From: an uncultured Actinomycetes bacterium
GTDB taxonomy: Bacteria; Actinomycetota; Thermoleophilia; RBG-16-64-13
Direction of reading: 5' to 3'
Assembly (NCBI GenBank): GCA_903873715.1
Contig: CAIQPS010000119.1
Coordinates: forward strand, 1 to 40,087
DNA: 40,087 bases
Shown piece after piece: positions 15,269 through 29,851 of the stretch. Made by a program: the position numbers and the translations under genes. The stretch's first letter is position 1, and the number at the start of each line of letters is the position of its first letter. Below the pieces are notes generated by a model. It did no database searches. It worked only from the letters and a program-made list of their open reading frames with translations, and was not told the DNA's origin.

Positions 15269-16264
15269 TCATCGGATGATCTCCCTCCTGGTGCCGGGGA
15301 CCAGGCGCACGCGTATCAAGGACCGGTCGGTGGCCCACCGAAGCGTGTCGCGGGCGAAGAGTAGCTGCCCGGTCCTGCCTAAGTCTGCATCGCCGGTCAC
15401 GAACAACGCACCGTGTACGCGGGTGCCGTCCAACAGCACCCCTCCGTGATCCACCACGACCACGCCGTACAGGTCCCCGAGACCGCGCGCGTCCAAAGCG
15501 CCCCCACCGGTGACGACTATCAGCACTGGTGCCCCGGGCCGCCCGGTACAGCCGCCGGGCAGGCGGACCGTCTGGCCGTCCCGCGCTCCAAGGGCTGTGA
15601 CCGAAGACGTCGCGGCCACCCCCGTCTCGCCCGCGGCTCCCGCCCCGAAGAGGAGCCGCCAGGTCTCGTCTAGCGCCCAAGGGGCCGCCGCCGTCCGGAC
15701 ACTCACCCTTTCTCCCACGAGGCCTGGTGGAGGCGCTTCGCGCAGCCAGACGACGGCGGCCTCTTCAAGGCCCGCGGTTCCGAACGCGTACTGGTCGACA
15801 TCCGACCACGGCAGGACTCGGTCCGCCTCGTACACCACCCGGTCCGCCACGAGCGCCGCCGACGGCAGGTCGACACCGTCACGCCCTCTCTCCATCCAGG
15901 TGGACACCACTATGGGAGAGACGTCATCGGGCTGCGACGCCGACACGTCCAATGCCCAGCCTCCGCTCGCAGAGATGGTCGCCGCCGTCGTCGACACGGA
16001 ACCGGAGGACTCGGAGCCGGCGATCCGATCCTGAGGAGACCACGTGACCAGGAGACTCTGCCGAGCTTCGAGAAGGGCCTGCTGCTTCTGCAGTAGCAGG
16101 TCGCGGCCGGTCTGCTCCGCATCCTTGCCGCGGTCGGAGGCCACGACCACTATCGAGAGGGCCTGCACGAGGACGGCGACGGCAAGGGCCACGAAGAGCA
16201 CGAAGAGCACCACCGACCCGCCCTGTCCCCCGCCGGCGGTCTTCGATTCCCTGCGGGTCTTCAT
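15269..16264 (-). CDS. PilX-like minor pilin/assembly protein (minus-strand set)
   Basis: The protein has 331 residues. A short basic leader ending GGGQGG precedes one long hydrophobic helix (about 17-40), as in PilX/GspK proteins, which often lack the Glu5 of true pilins. The extracellular part has no recognised domain. Its C-terminal third has repeating Gly/Val strands (VVVVDHGGVLLDG, HGALFVTGDADLG) suggestive of a small beta-helix and similar to the end of the plus-strand PilX-like protein (21917-23179). The start ATG 16264 overlaps the upstream prepilin stop (ATGA). The frame continues upstream but only as an overlap with that gene. It is the last gene of the minus-strand minor-pilin set. 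Confidence 0.72.
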   Translation of the reverse strand: MKTRRESKTAGGGQGGSVVLFVLFVALAVAVLVQALSIVVVASDRGKDAEQTGRDLLLQKQQALLEARQSLLVTWSPQDRIAGSESSGSVSTTAATISASGGWALDVSASQPDDVSPIVVSTWMERGRDGVDLPSAALVADRVVYEADRVLPWSDVDQYAFGTAGLEEAAVVWLREAPPPGLVGERVSVRTAAAPWALDETWRLLFGAGAAGETGVAATSSVTALGARDGQTVRLPGGCTGRPGAPVLIVVTGGGALDARGLGDLYGVVVVDHGGVLLDGTRVHGALFVTGDADLGRTGQLLFARDTLRWATDRSLIRVRLVPGTRREIIR

Positions 16265-16863
16265 CGCCCCACCGCCGCCGAAGCCGCCACCTGAGGTCCC
16301 TCGGCCCCGTCGCGCCCTTTCTCGGAGAGCACCAACCTCACGCCTTCCACGAGCGGCAGGTCGGCAGTCTGCGGCAGGCCCGGCAGCCCACCCTCGATGG
16401 AGCACGAGAAGGCTGACCGCGAGATGTCCACGTTCTCCACGATGGTCTTGTTGTCCGTGTACAGTGAATGAGGGAAGGTGGCCGGGCGGGCCGGTGGGCA
16501 GGGCCCCGTGCGGCGCATGAGTGCGCTGTTGACCAACTCCCATTCCACTAACTGGGCGGTCCCGGCCTGCGTCTGCTGCAACAGCACCACGTGCGACTTC
16601 GTGAGCAGCAACACCATCCCGTCCATCGGGAACGGGCAACTGAGACACGATGCAAGCCGCACGTCCCTCTCCAGCCGGGCGACCGCCACCCTGGCCTGCC
16701 CGACCCATATGGTGTCGTCCGCCTGCCCGGCCGCCACACCCTGGAGGGACACCCATACGGGCGCCAGCCCCAGGCTCAGGCACAGCGTCAGCGCAAGACC
16801 CAAGAGGAGTTCGACCAGCGAGAACCCACCCTGCGCCGCACGCCTAGTAATAGAGGTCCACAC
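16261..16863 (-). CDS. Type IV minor prepilin, PilW/PulJ-like
   Basis: The protein has 200 residues. The prepilin site is QGG/FSLVE: a 13-residue basic leader, cleavage after Gly13, Phe+1, Glu+5, then the hydrophobic helix LLLGLALTLCLSLGLAPVWV. The domain after the helix contains VARLERDVRLASCLSCPFP, the kind of segment seen in PilW/PulJ minor pilins. Four Cys residues could form disulfides. The start GTG 16863 lies 20 bp inside the end of the preceding prepilin gene. Minor pilins prime pilus assembly in the inner membrane. Confidence 0.82.
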   Translation of the reverse strand: MWTSITRRAAQGGFSLVELLLGLALTLCLSLGLAPVWVSLQGVAAGQADDTIWVGQARVAVARLERDVRLASCLSCPFPMDGMVLLLTKSHVVLLQQTQAGTAQLVEWELVNSALMRRTGPCPPARPATFPHSLYTDNKTIVENVDISRSAFSCSIEGGLPGLPQTADLPLVEGVRLVLSEKGRDGAEGPQVAASAAVGR

Positions 16864-17626
16864 TGCGCCCCTCCTCCATCTGCCACGTCTGGGTCCGTCC
16901 GTCGAGGTTCGCCGTGCCCCACCCCGTGAAAGGGGCCGTCTCTGCGAATAAGAGCCCGAAGGAGGGCGAGGAGATCTTCACGGCGCTCCACGAGACTCCC
17001 AGCGGCGATGAAGCGATCCCCCGGCGATGCACGACCACCCCCGGTGGTGGGCCATCCGAGGCGGCCAGCGGCACCGGCACCGGCACGATGCCCGAACCCG
17101 GCGGCACCTCCGTCCGCCAAGGCGGTCCCCACGGCCCCGCACCGCTGCGCACCCGTATCACCAGTGCTCCACCCGCATGGGCGCTGAACACCGACGGCTG
17201 CACAGATATCTCAGCCTGTCCGCTCCCCCCCGCTCCTCCGAGGCCGGCGGGATCTGCGACCACCTCCGCGACGAGCCAGCCGTCCACCCACACTCCAAGG
17301 CGGGCGATGCCGTTCCCACCCGTGGTCTCGCTGGTCCGAACGTGCAGCACGGGTCCCGGCCGCCACCAGGCGTCCACCACTCGGGGGCCCCAGTCTTCTT
17401 CACTGACGCTCTGCGCTGCCTGGCTCCGGCCGGCGACGGAGGAGGTACTCTGCGCGTCCCGGGCCCTGCTCAGTTGCCCTGCCAGCGACGTCGCCAGCGG
17501 CCCCACCACGATGCCGACGAGGATCACCGCGACGAGCACTTCCAACAGCAGGTAGCCGCCATCCCCGGCCAAGCTGGTCGGCCATCCACCATCGCCGGGC
17601 CCAGCCAGGAGGCTGCGCCTTGTCAC
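16844..17626 (-). CDS. Type IV minor prepilin, PilV-like
   Basis: The protein has 260 residues with an unusually long 24-residue leader ending AGDGG. Cleavage precedes YLLLE, so position +1 is Tyr rather than Phe/Met and Glu is at +5. The helix VLVAVILVGIVVGPLATSLAG follows. The body is rich in Gly, Pro, Val and Trp, with no recognised domain. The start GTG 17626 overlaps the upstream prepilin stop (GTGA). The degenerate cleavage context makes it worth checking that the peptidase processes it. Part of the same co-translated minor-pilin run. Confidence 0.78.
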   Translation of the reverse strand: MTRRSLLAGPGDGGWPTSLAGDGGYLLLEVLVAVILVGIVVGPLATSLAGQLSRARDAQSTSSVAGRSQAAQSVSEEDWGPRVVDAWWRPGPVLHVRTSETTGGNGIARLGVWVDGWLVAEVVADPAGLGGAGGSGQAEISVQPSVFSAHAGGALVIRVRSGAGPWGPPWRTEVPPGSGIVPVPVPLAASDGPPPGVVVHRRGIASSPLGVSWSAVKISSPSFGLLFAETAPFTGWGTANLDGRTQTWQMEEGRSVDLYY

Positions 17627-18102
17627 CGGGCATCCTCCCGCACCCTCGTCGTGAGCCCGGATTCCAAGCGCACCGCGACTCGGAACTCACCGCCGGGCGC
17701 GGAGAAGAACAGGGACCCCGCTGCGTTCGGCGCACCTGAGCCCCCCACGAAGCGCACAGCCGCCCCGTGTTCCCTCTGCCACCGCGCCACGTTCGCCACC
17801 ACGTCTGCCGGCGGGACGGACATCCCGAGCCCCGCAGGGCCCGCCGCCGGCCAGGCCGTCACCGATAGCCGCTGACTGTCGACCGTCACGTCCTCTGACA
17901 CGCCGTGCCAGACCGACGCCACCTGCGCTGCGGCAGCCGCCGATTGCCAGGCCTGAGCCGTGCCACGCGCTTCCACCAGGCCCAGGCCCCGCGACAGGAC
18001 TACACCGGCGACAGTCATGCAGATGGCAAGCACCGACAGCACGGCCATCATTTCGAACAGGGTGTGACCCGCTTCGGAGAGTGTGTGGATCCGGTGTCGC
18101 AT
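17623..18102 (-). CDS. Type IV minor prepilin, FimT/GspH-like
   Basis: The protein has 159 residues. The leader MRHRIHTLSEAG is followed by HTLFE: cleavage after Gly12, His at +1 and Glu at +5. The helix MMAVLSVLAICMTVAGVVLS comes next. GspH/FimT proteins normally have Phe at +1, so His is atypical. It is the first gene of a four-gene prepilin run with overlapping stops and starts. It probably has its own promoter: a weak TACCGT lies 6 nt before ATG 18102, and no ribosome-binding site is evident. Confidence 0.78.
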   Translation of the reverse strand: MRHRIHTLSEAGHTLFEMMAVLSVLAICMTVAGVVLSRGLGLVEARGTAQAWQSAAAAAQVASVWHGVSEDVTVDSQRLSVTAWPAAGPAGLGMSVPPADVVANVARWQREHGAAVRFVGGSGAPNAAGSLFFSAPGGEFRVAVRLESGLTTRVREDAR

Positions 18103-18201: not shown

Positions 18202-18849
18202 CTACGAGGAGAGGTTGACCCCTGCCTTTTGAGCCGCGGTGCGGACCTGGTCAGCCTCGGCCTTGCGGCCCTGGGACTCGAGCAGCGCGATGAGGACTTC
18301 GTAGGCGCGCGCGTAGGTGGGGTCGGTGGAGATGGCCCGTTTGTAGCTGGCCTCAGCGTCGGCAGGCCGGCCGACGGCATCCTGGGCTTGGCCGAGGAAG
18401 GTCAGGTACTTGGCCGAAGGGTCCAGGGCGACGGCCTCGCCGAGCACCGCCACAGCCTTCTCCGGCTGGCTCTGATGGTTGAGGTAGTTGAAGCCGAGCT
18501 CCACTCTGGTCTGAGCGTCCTTCAGATCTGCTGCGACGACCTTCTCCTGGTATGGCAGGGCGCCGTTGAAATCCCCCATGAGAAAGAGGTCGACAGCGAC
18601 ACCGCGAAGGGCTTCGAGGTTCGCCGGATCCTGATCGAGTTTCTGCTTGTACAGAGAGACGGCGGTCTTGTAGTCATTGGCCCGATCGGCCTTGCGTGCC
18701 GCCGCCAGCGGGTCGTTGCCGCAGCCCGCGACGACGAGGGCCAGGCCGAGGAGTGAGACCACCAGGAACGCACACAGGCCGGCGGCGAGGGCCTGCCTCT
18801 TAGCCGGTCTGCATAGGAGCGCCTTACGGACTGTCACGCTTCTCTTCAT
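18202..18849 (-). CDS. TPR-repeat lipoprotein
   Basis: The protein has 215 residues. A basic N terminus and hydrophobic stretch end in the lipobox VAGC (Cys43), so it is exported and lipid-anchored. At least four tetratricopeptide repeats follow (about 50-205), for example ANLEALRGVAVDLFLMGDFNGALPYQ and PTYARAYEVLIALLESQGRKAEA. TPR lipoproteins near pilus genes can act in assembly (PilF-like), but similarity to PilF is only in architecture. Starts at ATG 18858 and 18849 are both possible; neither has a ribosome-binding site. It lies directly behind the pilin terminator and may depend on readthrough. Confidence 0.78.
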   Translation of the reverse strand: MKRSVTVRKALLCRPAKRQALAAGLCAFLVVSLLGLALVVAGCGNDPLAAARKADRANDYKTAVSLYKQKLDQDPANLEALRGVAVDLFLMGDFNGALPYQEKVVAADLKDAQTRVELGFNYLNHQSQPEKAVAVLGEAVALDPSAKYLTFLGQAQDAVGRPADAEASYKRAISTDPTYARAYEVLIALLESQGRKAEADQVRTAAQKAGVNLSS

Positions 18850-18865
18850 GGCAGCCATTCTAAAC

Positions 18866-18892
18866 AAAAAAAGGGGCCCCATGCGGGGCCCC
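18866..18892 (-). terminator. Intrinsic terminator after the major pilin gene
   Basis: On the minus strand the sequence reads GGGGCCCC-GCAT-GGGGCCCC followed by seven T residues. This is a strong rho-independent terminator 26 nt after the pilin stop. It should make pilin mRNA mostly monocistronic and limit expression of the TPR and minor-pilin genes beyond. Confidence 0.92.
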
Positions 18893-18918
18893 TCGCGAGA
18901 CTCGGTAGTGAGTACCGA

Positions 18919-19431
18919 TTACCAGCCGATGGTGGTGTCGCCGTCGATGGTCTTGAGGAAGGTCGTGCCACCGTCCGGGGCGCCTTTGTTGGTGTAGACG
19001 CCGAAGGTGTTCTCGGAGAGCGAGATGGTGGCCACGGAGAACGAGGTGTCGTCGCCGAAGTAGTCGACCGCGTTGATGCCGGCGTCAGCCGAAACACCGG
19101 TGAAGGTGCCAGCGGCGGGCGTGGAGCCAGCGGCGGCGGTGATGGTCACGACGGCTGCGGAAGCCTGGTTGAACACGATGGACGGTTCGATCGCCTGCAG
19201 GACGCTACTCGCAACGTTGTATGTGCGGCCGTCGACATAGGCGGATTCGATGGTGGTCATGGCGTTGCGGACGAGCGACTTAGCAGCCGCGTCCTGAGCT
19301 TTCTGGCGCTGGCCAAGGAAGGTCGGGATGGCGATAGCGGCCAGGATGGCGATGATGATGATCACCACCAAGAGTTCGATGAGGGTGAAACCCTTATCGC
19401 TCTTCATCCTCTTCTGGATCTTGGTAAACAT
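18919..19431 (-). CDS. pilA: Type IV major pilin
   Basis: The protein has 170 residues, typical for a type IVa pilin. The leader MFTKIQKRMKSDKG is cut before FTLIELLVVIIIIAILAAIAIP, with Phe+1 and Glu+5 and the classic N-terminal helix. The C-terminal domain ends with the strand-rich VDYFGDDTSFSVATISLSEN and has no cysteine pair. The ATG at 19431 has a strong AGGAGGAGGA site. Upstream are a folded leader and a sigma-28-like promoter, and downstream a strong terminator. This is the pattern expected for an abundantly made structural pilin. The motor, peptidase and platform genes are not in this window. Confidence 0.93.
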   Translation of the reverse strand: MFTKIQKRMKSDKGFTLIELLVVIIIIAILAAIAIPTFLGQRQKAQDAAAKSLVRNAMTTIESAYVDGRTYNVASSVLQAIEPSIVFNQASAAVVTITAAAGSTPAAGTFTGVSADAGINAVDYFGDDTSFSVATISLSENTFGVYTNKGAPDGGTTFLKTIDGDTTIGW

Positions 19432-19472
19432 TGTTTACGCTCCTCCTCCTGTAGTTCACGGACCCTTTTGTT

Positions 19473-19516
19473 GGGACCGCGAACTTTTCGCGGACCCGCA
19501 CACCGTTTTTGGTGTG
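19473..19516 (-). promoter_or_regulatory. Two stable hairpins in the pilin mRNA leader
   Basis: Hairpin 1 (19499-19516) is CACACC-AAAAAC-GGTGTG. Hairpin 2 (19473-19497) is CCGCGA-AAAGT-TCGCGG with an outer GGG/CCC clamp. They follow each other directly at the predicted 5' end of the transcript and stop about 25 nt before the ribosome-binding site. A stabilising role for pilin mRNA is inferred. They do not match the c-di-GMP riboswitch consensus I know. Confidence 0.6.
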
Positions 19517-19525
19517 TCGCTACTT

Positions 19526-19552
19526 ATGTCGGCAGGATGACGCCCGACTTTA
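19526..19552 (-). promoter_or_regulatory. Sigma-28 (FliA/WhiG)-type promoter of the pilin gene
   Basis: On the minus strand TAAAGTCG (19552-19545) and GCCGACAT (19533-19526) are separated by 11 bp. The known consensus is TAAAGTTT-N11-GCCGATAA. This gives TAAA-N15-GCCGA, the diagnostic core. The predicted transcript start is near 19518, right before the leader hairpins. Confidence 0.75.
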
Positions 19553-19564
19553 GCGATTCGTGTA

Positions 19565-19593
19565 GGACCTTAGTCCCATGCTGGGCGATCGCC
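19565..19593. promoter_or_regulatory. Two palindromes between the divergent pilus promoters
   Basis: GGAC-CTTA-GTCC (19565-19576) and the perfect 10-bp GGCGATCGCC (19584-19593) lie between the two sigma-28-type promoters. The first is 12 bp from the pilin -35. They are candidate operators for a regulator acting on both arms; this is inference only. Confidence 0.45.
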
Positions 19594-19631
19594 TCGCGCG
19601 CGTCGCGCCCTATAGAGACACAGGGGCCCGC

Positions 19632-19659
19632 TAAAGAACGCCACCCGGCGTGCCGATAT
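19632..19659 (+). promoter_or_regulatory. Sigma-28-type promoter of plus-strand minor-pilin operon
   Basis: TAAAGAAC (19632-19639) and GCCGATAT (19652-19659) are separated by 12 bp, one more than the optimum. The -10 matches the consensus GCCGATAA at seven of eight positions. The predicted start near 19666 gives a leader of about 23 nt containing GGAG before ATG 19689. Confidence 0.7.
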
Positions 19660-19688
19660 CCCCTTCGACACACATCTAAGGAGACGGA

Positions 19689-21242
19689 ATGCGCTTCTCC
19701 CCCCGGCCGGACACCACCAGCTCGATCGTCAGAGCCCGCGCGCAGCGAGGCATGACCCTCATCGAGGTCATGGTGGCCGCGCTGATCCTCCTGGTGGCCA
19801 TGGCGGGCATCGTCCCCTTCTTCGTCACCGGTCTGAGCCAGGCGTCCACCATCCGCATGCGCTCCATCGCCAGCAACCTCGCGCGCGAGAAGATGGAGCT
19901 CATCCGCCAGCTCGACTACCGCGAGATCTACACGCAGGCCATGAAGCTCTCGGACGCCACCCTGGGCTCGCGGACTCTCGAGACACTCTTCGGCACCACC
20001 GAGACCGTGCGTGGAGTCGAGTTCCACATCTCCTACGTGGTCAACAACCAGGGCTACCAGACGGGCACACTGAAAGAAGTGACCGTGAACGTGGACTGGA
20101 CGGCCCCACCCAAGGTGTCGCCGGCCTCGACCACGACCCTGGTGCACCAGCAGTTCCTGGGGCCGCGCGGTTCGAAGCTCGACGTGAGCACCCTGCAGGA
20201 CGATCCGCTCGGCACTCCGTTCTCCCTCATCACCAACACACACAACACCACGGTCAAGTACTACGTCGCTCAGGCGGACTGGAACCTCATCTTCTACGAC
20301 CCCACCCAGAGCAACCCGACGACCCGCAACGCGTACATGCGCGTGGCCTTCGTAGACCAGCAGGGCCAGGCCATCCCCGTCGGCCCCTCCGGCAACGACT
20401 ACAAGATCGACACGTCCTACCTTCACTACACCAAGGACTCCAACGGGCTGATCAACGCCGTCTGGTTCCAATACACCTTCGACGAGTCGGTCATCCCGGA
20501 CGGTTATTGGGAGACCCGGGCGGTCTGCTACAACAGCTACAACGAACCCGGCAACACGTGGAGGCTGCGGCTGCGCATCGAGAAGGCCGCCCCCTTCGCT
20601 CCCACCTCGTTCACCGCCGTCCCGCAGGCCGACAACCACACGATCATCCTCAACTGGCTGAGCGGCGCCGAACGCGACCGCAGCCACTGGGTGCTGGAGC
20701 GGCGCAAGTGGAACTACGTCACGGGCGCGTGGGGCGAATGGGTGGTGGTCATCAACAACCTCGACCCCAACCTGACCACCTACCACGACATCGGCAACGA
20801 GGCCTCTGGCATCGATCCGTGGGGCAACACGTCCACCCACAACTACTACCAGTACTCGCTGTTCGCGATAGATACCAACGTGCCGCCCAATACCGGTGCT
20901 GCAGCGCAGACCCAGACCTACATACCGGAGACCTCCACCACGTCCACCACGCTGTCCACTTCCACCACGAGTTCCACGAGCACGACCTCCACATCGAGCA
21001 CCACCACCACGGCCGGCCTCGTGAACATCAACATCCAGAACAACACCACCGCCACCTACACGGTCACGCTGATACTCACCGGCACCAACACCGTCTACAC
21101 GGTCACGTGCAAGAAGAGCAAGACGACCACCGTGCAGGTCAAGACGGGTTGGTACCAGGCCACCGCCACCAGCGGCAGCAAGACCGTGACCGGTTCGTTC
21201 CAGGCCGGCGTCACCCCCAACCCCGTGCTCTCCATCAACTGA
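19689..21242 (+). CDS. Large PilV-like prepilin with FN3-like module, candidate pilus-tip protein
   Basis: The protein has 517 residues, two to three times the size of an ordinary minor pilin. The 21-residue leader ends RAQRG, and cleavage precedes MTLIEVMVAALILLVAMAGIVPFF (Met+1, Glu+5). A pilin-like domain runs to about residue 300. A segment near 305-415 (APTSFTAVPQADNHTIILNW, then the W-rich and YSLFAID strands) looks like a fibronectin type III fold. A Ser/Thr linker of about 35 residues follows (416-450), and then a small all-beta C-terminal domain. This layout resembles adhesive tip pilins; ligand and role are unknown. Translation starts at ATG 19689 behind GGAG. First gene of the plus-strand set. 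Confidence 0.82.
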   Translation: MRFSPRPDTTSSIVRARAQRGMTLIEVMVAALILLVAMAGIVPFFVTGLSQASTIRMRSIASNLAREKMELIRQLDYREIYTQAMKLSDATLGSRTLETLFGTTETVRGVEFHISYVVNNQGYQTGTLKEVTVNVDWTAPPKVSPASTTTLVHQQFLGPRGSKLDVSTLQDDPLGTPFSLITNTHNTTVKYYVAQADWNLIFYDPTQSNPTTRNAYMRVAFVDQQGQAIPVGPSGNDYKIDTSYLHYTKDSNGLINAVWFQYTFDESVIPDGYWETRAVCYNSYNEPGNTWRLRLRIEKAAPFAPTSFTAVPQADNHTIILNWLSGAERDRSHWVLERRKWNYVTGAWGEWVVVINNLDPNLTTYHDIGNEASGIDPWGNTSTHNYYQYSLFAIDTNVPPNTGAAAQTQTYIPETSTTSTTLSTSTTSSTSTTSTSSTTTTAGLVNINIQNNTTATYTVTLILTGTNTVYTVTCKKSKTTTVQVKTGWYQATATSGSKTVTGSFQAGVTPNPVLSIN

Positions 21243-21254
21243 TCGGACGATGTC

Positions 21255-21893
21255 ATGAGGGCACGGACGATACGAAGTGCGCTTGCCCGGCGGGAGGGGT
21301 TCACTCTCGTCGAACTGCTCGTGGTGATGATGGTCTTGCTCGTGATCATGGGAGCCATCTACACGGTCTGGTTCGGGCTTCAGCGATCGTACAGCTTCAC
21401 CGACGAGGACTTGAGCGCCCAGTCGCAGGCCCGGGCGGCCATGAGTGAGATGGTGGAGTTCATAAGGACCGCCAGAGCGCCCGACCCCGCTCCCAGCGAA
21501 GAGCTCAACGTCGTCATCTACAGCGCCGACGACAACGAGCTCGTCTTCTGGACCGACACCGACCGGGACGACGTCCACGACCTCGAACTCTGCCGCTTCC
21601 GCGTCAACCTGGTCGACCAGACCCTGTTCCGCGACAGCACCAACGACGAGGACCCGAGATTCATCGACGGTGTCGAGGTGCGGCTGGTCACCAACTGTGT
21701 CACGAACTCGGAGTCGAAGCCGCTCTTCACATACGTCGGGTCGGACGGGCAGGTGATGGCCACACCGGTCGCCGATCCCAACCAGATCCGGGAGATCCAC
21801 ATAGACCTTCTGATCGACATCTACGAGAACAACCGTCCGATCGCGCACGAGCTCACCTCCACGGTGCAGCCGCGCAATCTCCGCCAGTACTAG
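21255..21893 (+). CDS. Type IV minor prepilin, PilW/PulJ-like (plus-strand set)
   Basis: The protein has 212 residues. The 15-residue leader MRARTIRSALARREG is cut before FTLVELLVVMMVLLVIMGAIYTVWFG (Phe+1, Glu+5). The segment SAQSQARAAMSEMVEFIRTAR is characteristic of PilW/PulJ-type minor pilins, which share the helix-then-RxxxSEMVxxIRxA pattern. Acidic residues dominate the middle (EDPRFIDGVE, DTDRDDVHD). Two cysteines, in LELCRF and VTNCVTN, may pair. It begins 12 bp after the large prepilin gene and is followed by the PilX-like gene, the usual V-W-X order of minor-pilin operons. Confidence 0.85.
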   Translation: MRARTIRSALARREGFTLVELLVVMMVLLVIMGAIYTVWFGLQRSYSFTDEDLSAQSQARAAMSEMVEFIRTARAPDPAPSEELNVVIYSADDNELVFWTDTDRDDVHDLELCRFRVNLVDQTLFRDSTNDEDPRFIDGVEVRLVTNCVTNSESKPLFTYVGSDGQVMATPVADPNQIREIHIDLLIDIYENNRPIAHELTSTVQPRNLRQY

Positions 21894-21916: not shown

Positions 21917-23179
21917 ATGAAGACCACGACCCAAACCGCGCAACTCCGGACCGGCCGACTCGGCCGTCTAGCCTCCGGAGGTCGCGAGGACGGCATCGCC
22001 ATGGTCATCGCGATAGTGTTCGTGATCATTTTCATGATGCTGGGCGCCGCTCTCTACTGGCTGATCCACTCCCAGACCGCCTCCGCCGAGACTGAGCGCA
22101 CCGACATCAAGGCCTTCAACGTGTCCGAGGCCGGCGTCGACGCGGGCATGCTCACGCTCCGTCTCAACTGGCCCCGCCACACCACCGACAACGCCACCCT
22201 CGCCGTGACTGAATCCGCGCTCAAGACGGCTCTACAGGCGGCCAACGCGAGTCTCTACGACCCCACCCGTTCAGCCGCCAGCGACTTCCTGCAGGTGGCC
22301 ATCTACGACAACGTCGACAGCAAAGGTCAAACCACCACCGTCGCCGACCCGGACGCCCCCACGTGGGACTCCAACAAGGACGGCAAGATGTTCGTCGACG
22401 CGACGGCCAACGTCGGCGACGACCGTCACCGCATCCTGATCATGGCCGAGCGCCAGCAGTGGCAGCTCTCCTTCCCCGCTGCGCTGGCCCTCTGGTCCGG
22501 CAGCGTGGACAGCAACGGGCAGGGCTTTCAGCTGTCCATCGAGAAGGGGACGCCCCCCATCTACTACGACGTCCACGACTCCCAACACAAGGGCGTGGAC
22601 CCCGTTCCCCCGTCCGACGTCCTCGCGGCGACCCCCACCGACTGGGAGAACGTCGTAAGCACGCAGACCCAGCAGGCGCTCATGAAGATCGCCCAGGACG
22701 AACACTCGTACTTCGCGCCGGAGACCCTTCCCGTGACTATCGACGGTCAGAGCTACTCGACGGTCACGTCTGCCGCGACCGCGTTCCTCCTGTCGGGCGA
22801 CGCGAACGGTAAGGTGGTGTACATCAAGAGCGCCACCGCCGTGGTGATCGAGGGCGACAAACAGGTGGGCACCGAGGAAGAACCGGTGGTCGTGGTGTTC
22901 GACACCCCCACCGGCACCGAGAACGTCTGGGACTTCCGGGGCACCGCCGACTTCTGGGGCATCATGGTGACGATCGGCAACAACACCCTCAGGGGCACCT
23001 GCGCCATGCACGGTGCCATGTTCTGCAAGGGGGCCATCGCGAACAAGGGTAACGGCTCGGTCGCCGAACTGCTCTACAACCAGGATGTGATCAACAACAT
23101 CAACGGCCAGTACGTCATCGACGTGAACCTCGTGCCGAACACCTGGGAAGAGTACACGCTCAAGAAGACGTCAAACTAG
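21917..23179 (+). CDS. PilX-like minor pilin/assembly protein (plus-strand set)
   Basis: The protein has 420 residues. A 26-residue leader ending GGREDG precedes IAMVIAIVFVIIFMMLGAALYWLI, a PilX/GspK-like helix without Glu5. The segment SQTASAETERTDIKAFNVSEAGVDAGMLTL matches the start of PilX-like proteins, where the SEAG motif is typical. Its end (FRGTADFWGIMVTIGNN, HGAMFCKGAIANKGNG, LYNQDVI) looks like short beta-helix rungs. It is similar in pattern to the end of the minus-strand PilX-like protein. GAGGAG lies upstream of ATG 21917, 23 bp after the preceding gene. Last gene of the plus-strand set; it converges on dut. Confidence 0.78.
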   Translation: MKTTTQTAQLRTGRLGRLASGGREDGIAMVIAIVFVIIFMMLGAALYWLIHSQTASAETERTDIKAFNVSEAGVDAGMLTLRLNWPRHTTDNATLAVTESALKTALQAANASLYDPTRSAASDFLQVAIYDNVDSKGQTTTVADPDAPTWDSNKDGKMFVDATANVGDDRHRILIMAERQQWQLSFPAALALWSGSVDSNGQGFQLSIEKGTPPIYYDVHDSQHKGVDPVPPSDVLAATPTDWENVVSTQTQQALMKIAQDEHSYFAPETLPVTIDGQSYSTVTSAATAFLLSGDANGKVVYIKSATAVVIEGDKQVGTEEEPVVVVFDTPTGTENVWDFRGTADFWGIMVTIGNNTLRGTCAMHGAMFCKGAIANKGNGSVAELLYNQDVINNINGQYVIDVNLVPNTWEEYTLKKTSN

Positions 23180-29826: not shown

Positions 29827-29851
29827 AAAAAAAGCCGAACACACGTCCGGC
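29827..29851 (-). terminator. Intrinsic terminator before rny
   Basis: On the minus strand GCCGGAC-GTGT-GTTCGGC (29851-29834) forms a 7-bp stem with one G-U pair, followed by seven T residues. This is a good rho-independent terminator 77 nt before the rny start codon. Confidence 0.88.

Follow-up and report, generated by a model that had tools for sequence, protein, structure and literature searches.

Candidate WhiG promoters at a type IV pilin locus in an uncultured Thermoleophilia family without flagella

Introduction

Control of type IV pili by the sigma factor WhiG and the anti-sigma factor RsiG has been reported in Rubrobacter radiotolerans, where 12 promoters of this type were mapped together with their transcript starts (Schumacher et al. 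2021, PMC8325347). The same report records RsiG in the class Thermoleophilia, and the sections of it that are cited here name no WhiG targets in that class. Given the Rubrobacter precedent, the use of sigma-28-type promoters for pilins, which the initial annotation of the locus described below set apart from the usual flagellar role, is unsurprising.

The window analysed here, meaning the whole stretch of 40,087 nucleotides, is a single contig of a Thermoleophilia draft assembly (3.33 Mb in 169 contigs, 96.9% complete) and carries a type IV pilin locus. The genetic content of this locus, its predicted promoters and their counterparts in related genomes are described in turn.

The pilin locus and its divergent boxes

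The major pilin gene, pilA (18919..19431, minus strand), predicts a 170 aa protein that matches Pfam N_methyl (4.3e-10) and an NCBIfam prepilin domain above the cut-off, and has orthologues in the family. A 257-bp gap separates it from an operon of three predicted minor pilin genes on the plus strand. The first (19689..21242; 517 aa) has a PilV-like N-terminus, with a match to N_methyl and a weak one, below the cut-off, to PilV; the second (21255..21893; 212 aa) also matches N_methyl; and the last, a PilX-like gene (21917..23179; 420 aa), was assigned from gene order and a PilX_N match of 21 bits that is below the cut-off. The dut-like gene that follows is on the opposite strand.

Each strand of the gap carries one sigma-28-type box. 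The candidate WhiG promoter of pilA (19552-19526, minus strand) reads TAAAGTCG-N11-GCCGACAT with the spacer GGCGTCATCCT and has 2 mismatches to TAAA...GCCGATAA, while that of the minor pilin operon (19632-19659, plus strand) reads TAAAGAAC-N12-GCCGATAT with the spacer GCCACCCGGCGT and has 1. A box was assigned to a pilus gene when it matched TAAA-N-GCCGATAA with no more than 2 mismatches within about 200 bp upstream; here the distances to the start codon are 94 bases for pilA and 29 bases for the operon, and transcript starts are predicted from the box positions at about 19519 and 19666, respectively. The back-to-back arrangement proposed in the initial annotation was thus recovered, and in 20,000 dinucleotide-preserving shuffles of the gap, boxes with up to 2 mismatches on both strands together arose at a frequency of only 0.00025. 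Across the whole window there are 3 such matches, of which the two promoter boxes account for 2; the third, at 29830 (plus strand), lies antisense where the RNase Y gene region just begins, and seems fortuitous. In line with the claim that nothing else in the gap resembles a promoter, a consensus scan of 18700-19750, which does not cover all actinobacterial promoters, found no sigma-70-type site. The genome-wide scan suggested at the same time gave 8 occurrences of TAAA-N14..16-GCCGAYA compared with 1 for the reversed control, both figures being pattern counts only. A c-di-GMP riboswitch in the pilA leader was rejected, as no Rfam match to one, or to any other known RNA, was found there.

The suggestion that the two boxes drive both arms of the locus applies to the plus-side operon and was overstated for the minus side. 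A predicted intrinsic terminator (18871..18894, minus strand), consisting of a 10-pair stem and a T run, comes directly 3′ of pilA, and the minus transcript would therefore be mainly monocistronic. Beyond the terminator are a TPR lipoprotein-like gene (18202..18837, minus strand; gene call, matches to TPR families) and a second minor-pilin-like set on the same strand (15269..18102), comprising 17623-18102, 16844-17626, 16261-16863 and 15269-16264. The set was recognised by prepilin-like N-termini in the translations, and the N_methyl score of 17623-18102 falls just below the cut-off. No sigma-28 box with up to 2 mismatches was found upstream of it.

Two further loci of this genome carry related features. 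A second major-pilin-like gene (54% identical) is found on contig C2 (L032:4610-5257); the gap between it and crcB has a box of the strict form TAAAG-N13..15-GCCGAYA that faces crcB, while the second pilin is faced by a box with 2 mismatches on the opposite strand. The other is a perfect 12/12 box (L033; C60:384-409, minus strand), which would read antisense into an NlpC/P60-like gene and has no obvious product.

The sigma factor and its probable anti-sigma partner

A sigma-28 family gene, on which the proposal depends, is present. The sole strong FliA/WhiG homologue in the genome (C30:84379-85053) scores 285.7 bits against TIGR02479 (cut-off 189.6), with the next best protein at 124 bits, and passes the NCBIfam WhiG equivalog NF004935 (366 bits, cut-off 343). 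The gene order is rnhB-yraN-comM-dprA-xerC-whiG-rpsB, with gene names taken partly from translations, and the best PDB match of the product is Streptomyces venezuelae WhiG [6pfj] (2.6e-91). In a quick tree it falls among the core WhiGs, and two copies located near flagellar genes (G031 and G046) fall apart from these; as the branches are long, only this broad split was taken from the tree. The stretch LVKYVAGR is shared without change by S. venezuelae WhiG, in which K57, G61 and R62 have been placed there as contacts to c-di-GMP (PMC8325347), and is kept in the core WhiGs, with the G replaced by Y in the two flagella-linked copies.

The flagellar gene flhA (PF00771) is absent from all 18 family genomes, this one included, and present in 7 of the 61 class genomes. 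FlgM (PF04316) was considered as the partner of WhiG and rejected because this genome has none; weak FlgM-like matches near the cut-off occur in some flagellum-less relatives (L103, L104 and others). The anti-sigma factor anticipated in the initial annotation is thus not FlgM, and the part of that expectation that stands is RsiG (Pfam PF22802), which was detected in 56 of 61 genomes, among them all 17 same-family relatives. The four genomes of genus g23, which have no WhiG, also lack RsiG, and a fifth WhiG-less genome, G051, retains it.

With a profile built from eight RsiGs of the family and class, matches were obtained to the crystal structure of R. radiotolerans RsiG [7lq2] (5.6e-13) and to chain T of 6pfj, which is the partner of WhiG in the S. 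venezuelae structure (5.8e-15). The published RsiG motif is E(X)3S(X)2R(X)3Q(X)3D. In the RsiGs of relatives that were inspected (L161:13692-13982, L162:3936-4250, L107-L136) it takes the form E-X3-S-X2-R-X3-H-X3-D, keeping E, S, R and D with H in place of Q, and because of this replacement the motif alone is no proof of c-di-GMP binding in the class. Homologues with H for Q occur throughout the class. Searching for the published motif at the DNA level gave 6 matches and 4 in the control, none of them RsiG-like; relatives' RsiGs would be missed by such a pattern, as they carry H for Q.

Neither the Pfam family nor the family profile detected RsiG in this assembly, and no MglA-like GTPase was found. 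These empty searches would fit a genome in which the boxes are real WhiG promoters and WhiG is not under RsiG and c-di-GMP, either through true loss of RsiG or through a different anti-sigma factor, and in Actinoplanes WhiG-like sigma factors are reported to serve pili without RsiG (PMC8325347). However, RsiG occurs in 17 of 17 same-family relatives, and its neighbourhood there suggests where the gene would lie. In G001 and G003, rsiG is part of a pilB-pilT-pilC-apt-...-rsiG-gcvH-mglB-mglA-like stretch (L161 and L162; names from translations), whereas contig C129 of this genome (L160:1-2183) bears pilB and breaks inside pilT. As the contig ends there and the MglA-like gene, located beyond rsiG in relatives, is also missing, the most economical reading is an assembly gap, and loss or replacement of RsiG is considered unlikely. 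We infer that RsiG is present in this genome, with its expected place in the gap. The PilB of this genome includes a predicted MshE-type c-di-GMP-binding domain (NF053729; 54 bits, cut-off 38).

Conservation and putative regulon

The initial annotation had made conservation before orthologous pilins a test of the boxes. Upstream of pilA in the same-family genomes, a box with up to 2 mismatches was found in 15 of 17, compared with 0.35 expected from shuffles. The divergent pair between pilA and a minor pilin gene recurs in G001 (contig C114) and G015 (contig C22), which represent two other genera. Genus g10 (G009 and G014) has both WhiG and RsiG, yet no good box was found within 400 bp of pilA. 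With this level of conservation, the rarity of the pair in shuffles and no sigma-70-type site found, it is very improbable that the boxes are fortuitous or minor and that the pilins are driven from a housekeeping promoter of a kind that the consensus scan would overlook.

The 18 family genomes together contain 65 strict boxes, compared with 14 occurrences of the reversed pattern. In five genomes that fall short of the WhiG cut-off (G028, G033, G048, G058 and G051) there are no strict boxes and no pilin match, although this co-loss represents only about two independent events, since four of the five share one genus and two genera are involved overall. Strict boxes precede pilA in many genomes and, at other loci, additional minor pilin genes (L232, L245) and a gene for a PilT-type ATPase (L219). 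Also behind such boxes are genes that predict secreted proteins of the CAP/SLH and CAP/CE2_N types (L224, L034), cytochrome-like multihaem proteins (L216 from Pfam, L213 and L218 from CXXCH motifs in translations), sugar transferases (L211; L215 by similarity), proteins with an HD domain (L234, L254) and histidine kinases (L204, L241). The putative WhiG targets besides pilA would be surface or signalling genes, though single assignments are tentative because for several genes the box is over 200 bp away and some of the boxes are intragenic.

A putative small RNA between rpoD and gatC

Thirteen genomes of the family, this one (L037:6476-6580, contig C151 from 19475 onward) and 12 others, have a conserved putative small RNA of ~70 nt between rpoD and gatC, with a sigma-28 box directly upstream. 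It is absent from this position in G002 and G007, and G015 and G017 have two copies in tandem, the second of them with a weaker box. The distance from box to hairpin is about 8-12 bases. The predicted layout is a hairpin with a CCCAU loop, most commonly of the form GAGAGUUUCCCAUUCAAAACUCUC, then an invariant UCUCCUC, for which no pairing is predicted in most copies, and finally a terminator rich in GC. Five copies were compared with shuffles and all fold at lower energy (z -2.8 to -5.9).

As the loci were found through the box, its presence at each of them is ascertained and does not constitute independent evidence; the conserved RNA-like sequence behind it does. Rfam gave no convincing family match. 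Consensus folding of the alignment showed no compensatory changes, the stems hardly varying and some rows being misaligned by MAFFT, so that covariation speaks neither for nor against the structure. The unpaired CUUUCUCCUCU stretch could cover ribosome-binding sites. A role as a specific regulator of pilA was rejected: in this genome its predicted pairing with the ribosome site of pilA comes 37th among 168 genes, and in five relatives the pairing is unremarkable, and for this reason no target is proposed. A leader of gatCAB is less likely, because in most genomes a TATAAT-like gatC box follows the terminator of the small RNA.

Discussion

The two boxes are best explained as promoters of the sole WhiG/FliA-family sigma factor of this genome, held off by RsiG together with c-di-GMP, and from the sequence evidence we give this reading a probability of roughly 0.87. 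Use of both boxes by WhiG in vivo is predicted from their form, position and conservation. RNA polymerase carrying WhiG would transcribe pilA leftward, mostly stopping at the terminator after the gene, and the three-gene minor pilin operon rightward, so that under this proposal the pilus subunits would appear together. At high c-di-GMP the small coiled-coil RsiG would keep WhiG inactive, and a fall in c-di-GMP would free WhiG and allow the pilins to be made, the direction of the effect being taken by analogy from work on Streptomyces and Rubrobacter. The wider proposal, that WhiG in this family drives pilins, surface genes and a conserved ~70-nt regulatory RNA, forming a circuit of c-di-GMP, anti-sigma factor, WhiG and small RNA, stands at about even odds. 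If it is true, c-di-GMP would act on pili both through transcription and through the motor, by way of the predicted domain in PilB, with the small RNA as an added layer below WhiG.

A link between WhiG and pili that was reported from one genus would thereby become a conserved trait of an uncultured family without flagella in another class. This supports pilus control as an old role of WhiG and RsiG, with the control of sporulation in Streptomyces as a later one, and provides a concrete regulon that can be checked, candidate small RNA included. The core claim extends the c-di-GMP-linked pilus switching known from Rubrobacter to a new lineage and will not surprise specialists.

Among known systems, flagellar FliA/FlgM has the promoter consensus and the sigma factor superfamily in common with the present one, unlike which it involves genes, flhA and flgM, that this genome lacks. 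In a further known system a FliA/WhiG-type sigma factor transcribes type IV pilus genes as proposed here, but the organism is flagellated and has no RsiG. The RsiG-(c-di-GMP)-WhiG system of Streptomyces shares an orthologous WhiG and the same c-di-GMP logic, but controls sporulation and has a monomeric RsiG with twin motifs. Closest is the (RsiG)2-(c-di-GMP)2-WhiG switch of R. radiotolerans, which, as far as the cited sections of its description go, likewise has TAAA...GCCGATAA boxes in a type IV pilus cluster, a single-motif RsiG (seen here in the RsiGs of relatives) and genes of the c-di-GMP-turnover type among its targets, with no sporulation role. Apart from the RsiG missing from this assembly and the H for Q in relatives, the pilin locus agrees with that system in the features tested. 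The present case differs in belonging to the class Thermoleophilia, in the location of relatives' rsiG near pilB-pilT-pilC and mglAB, in the altered motif, and in the addition of a putative small RNA to the regulon.
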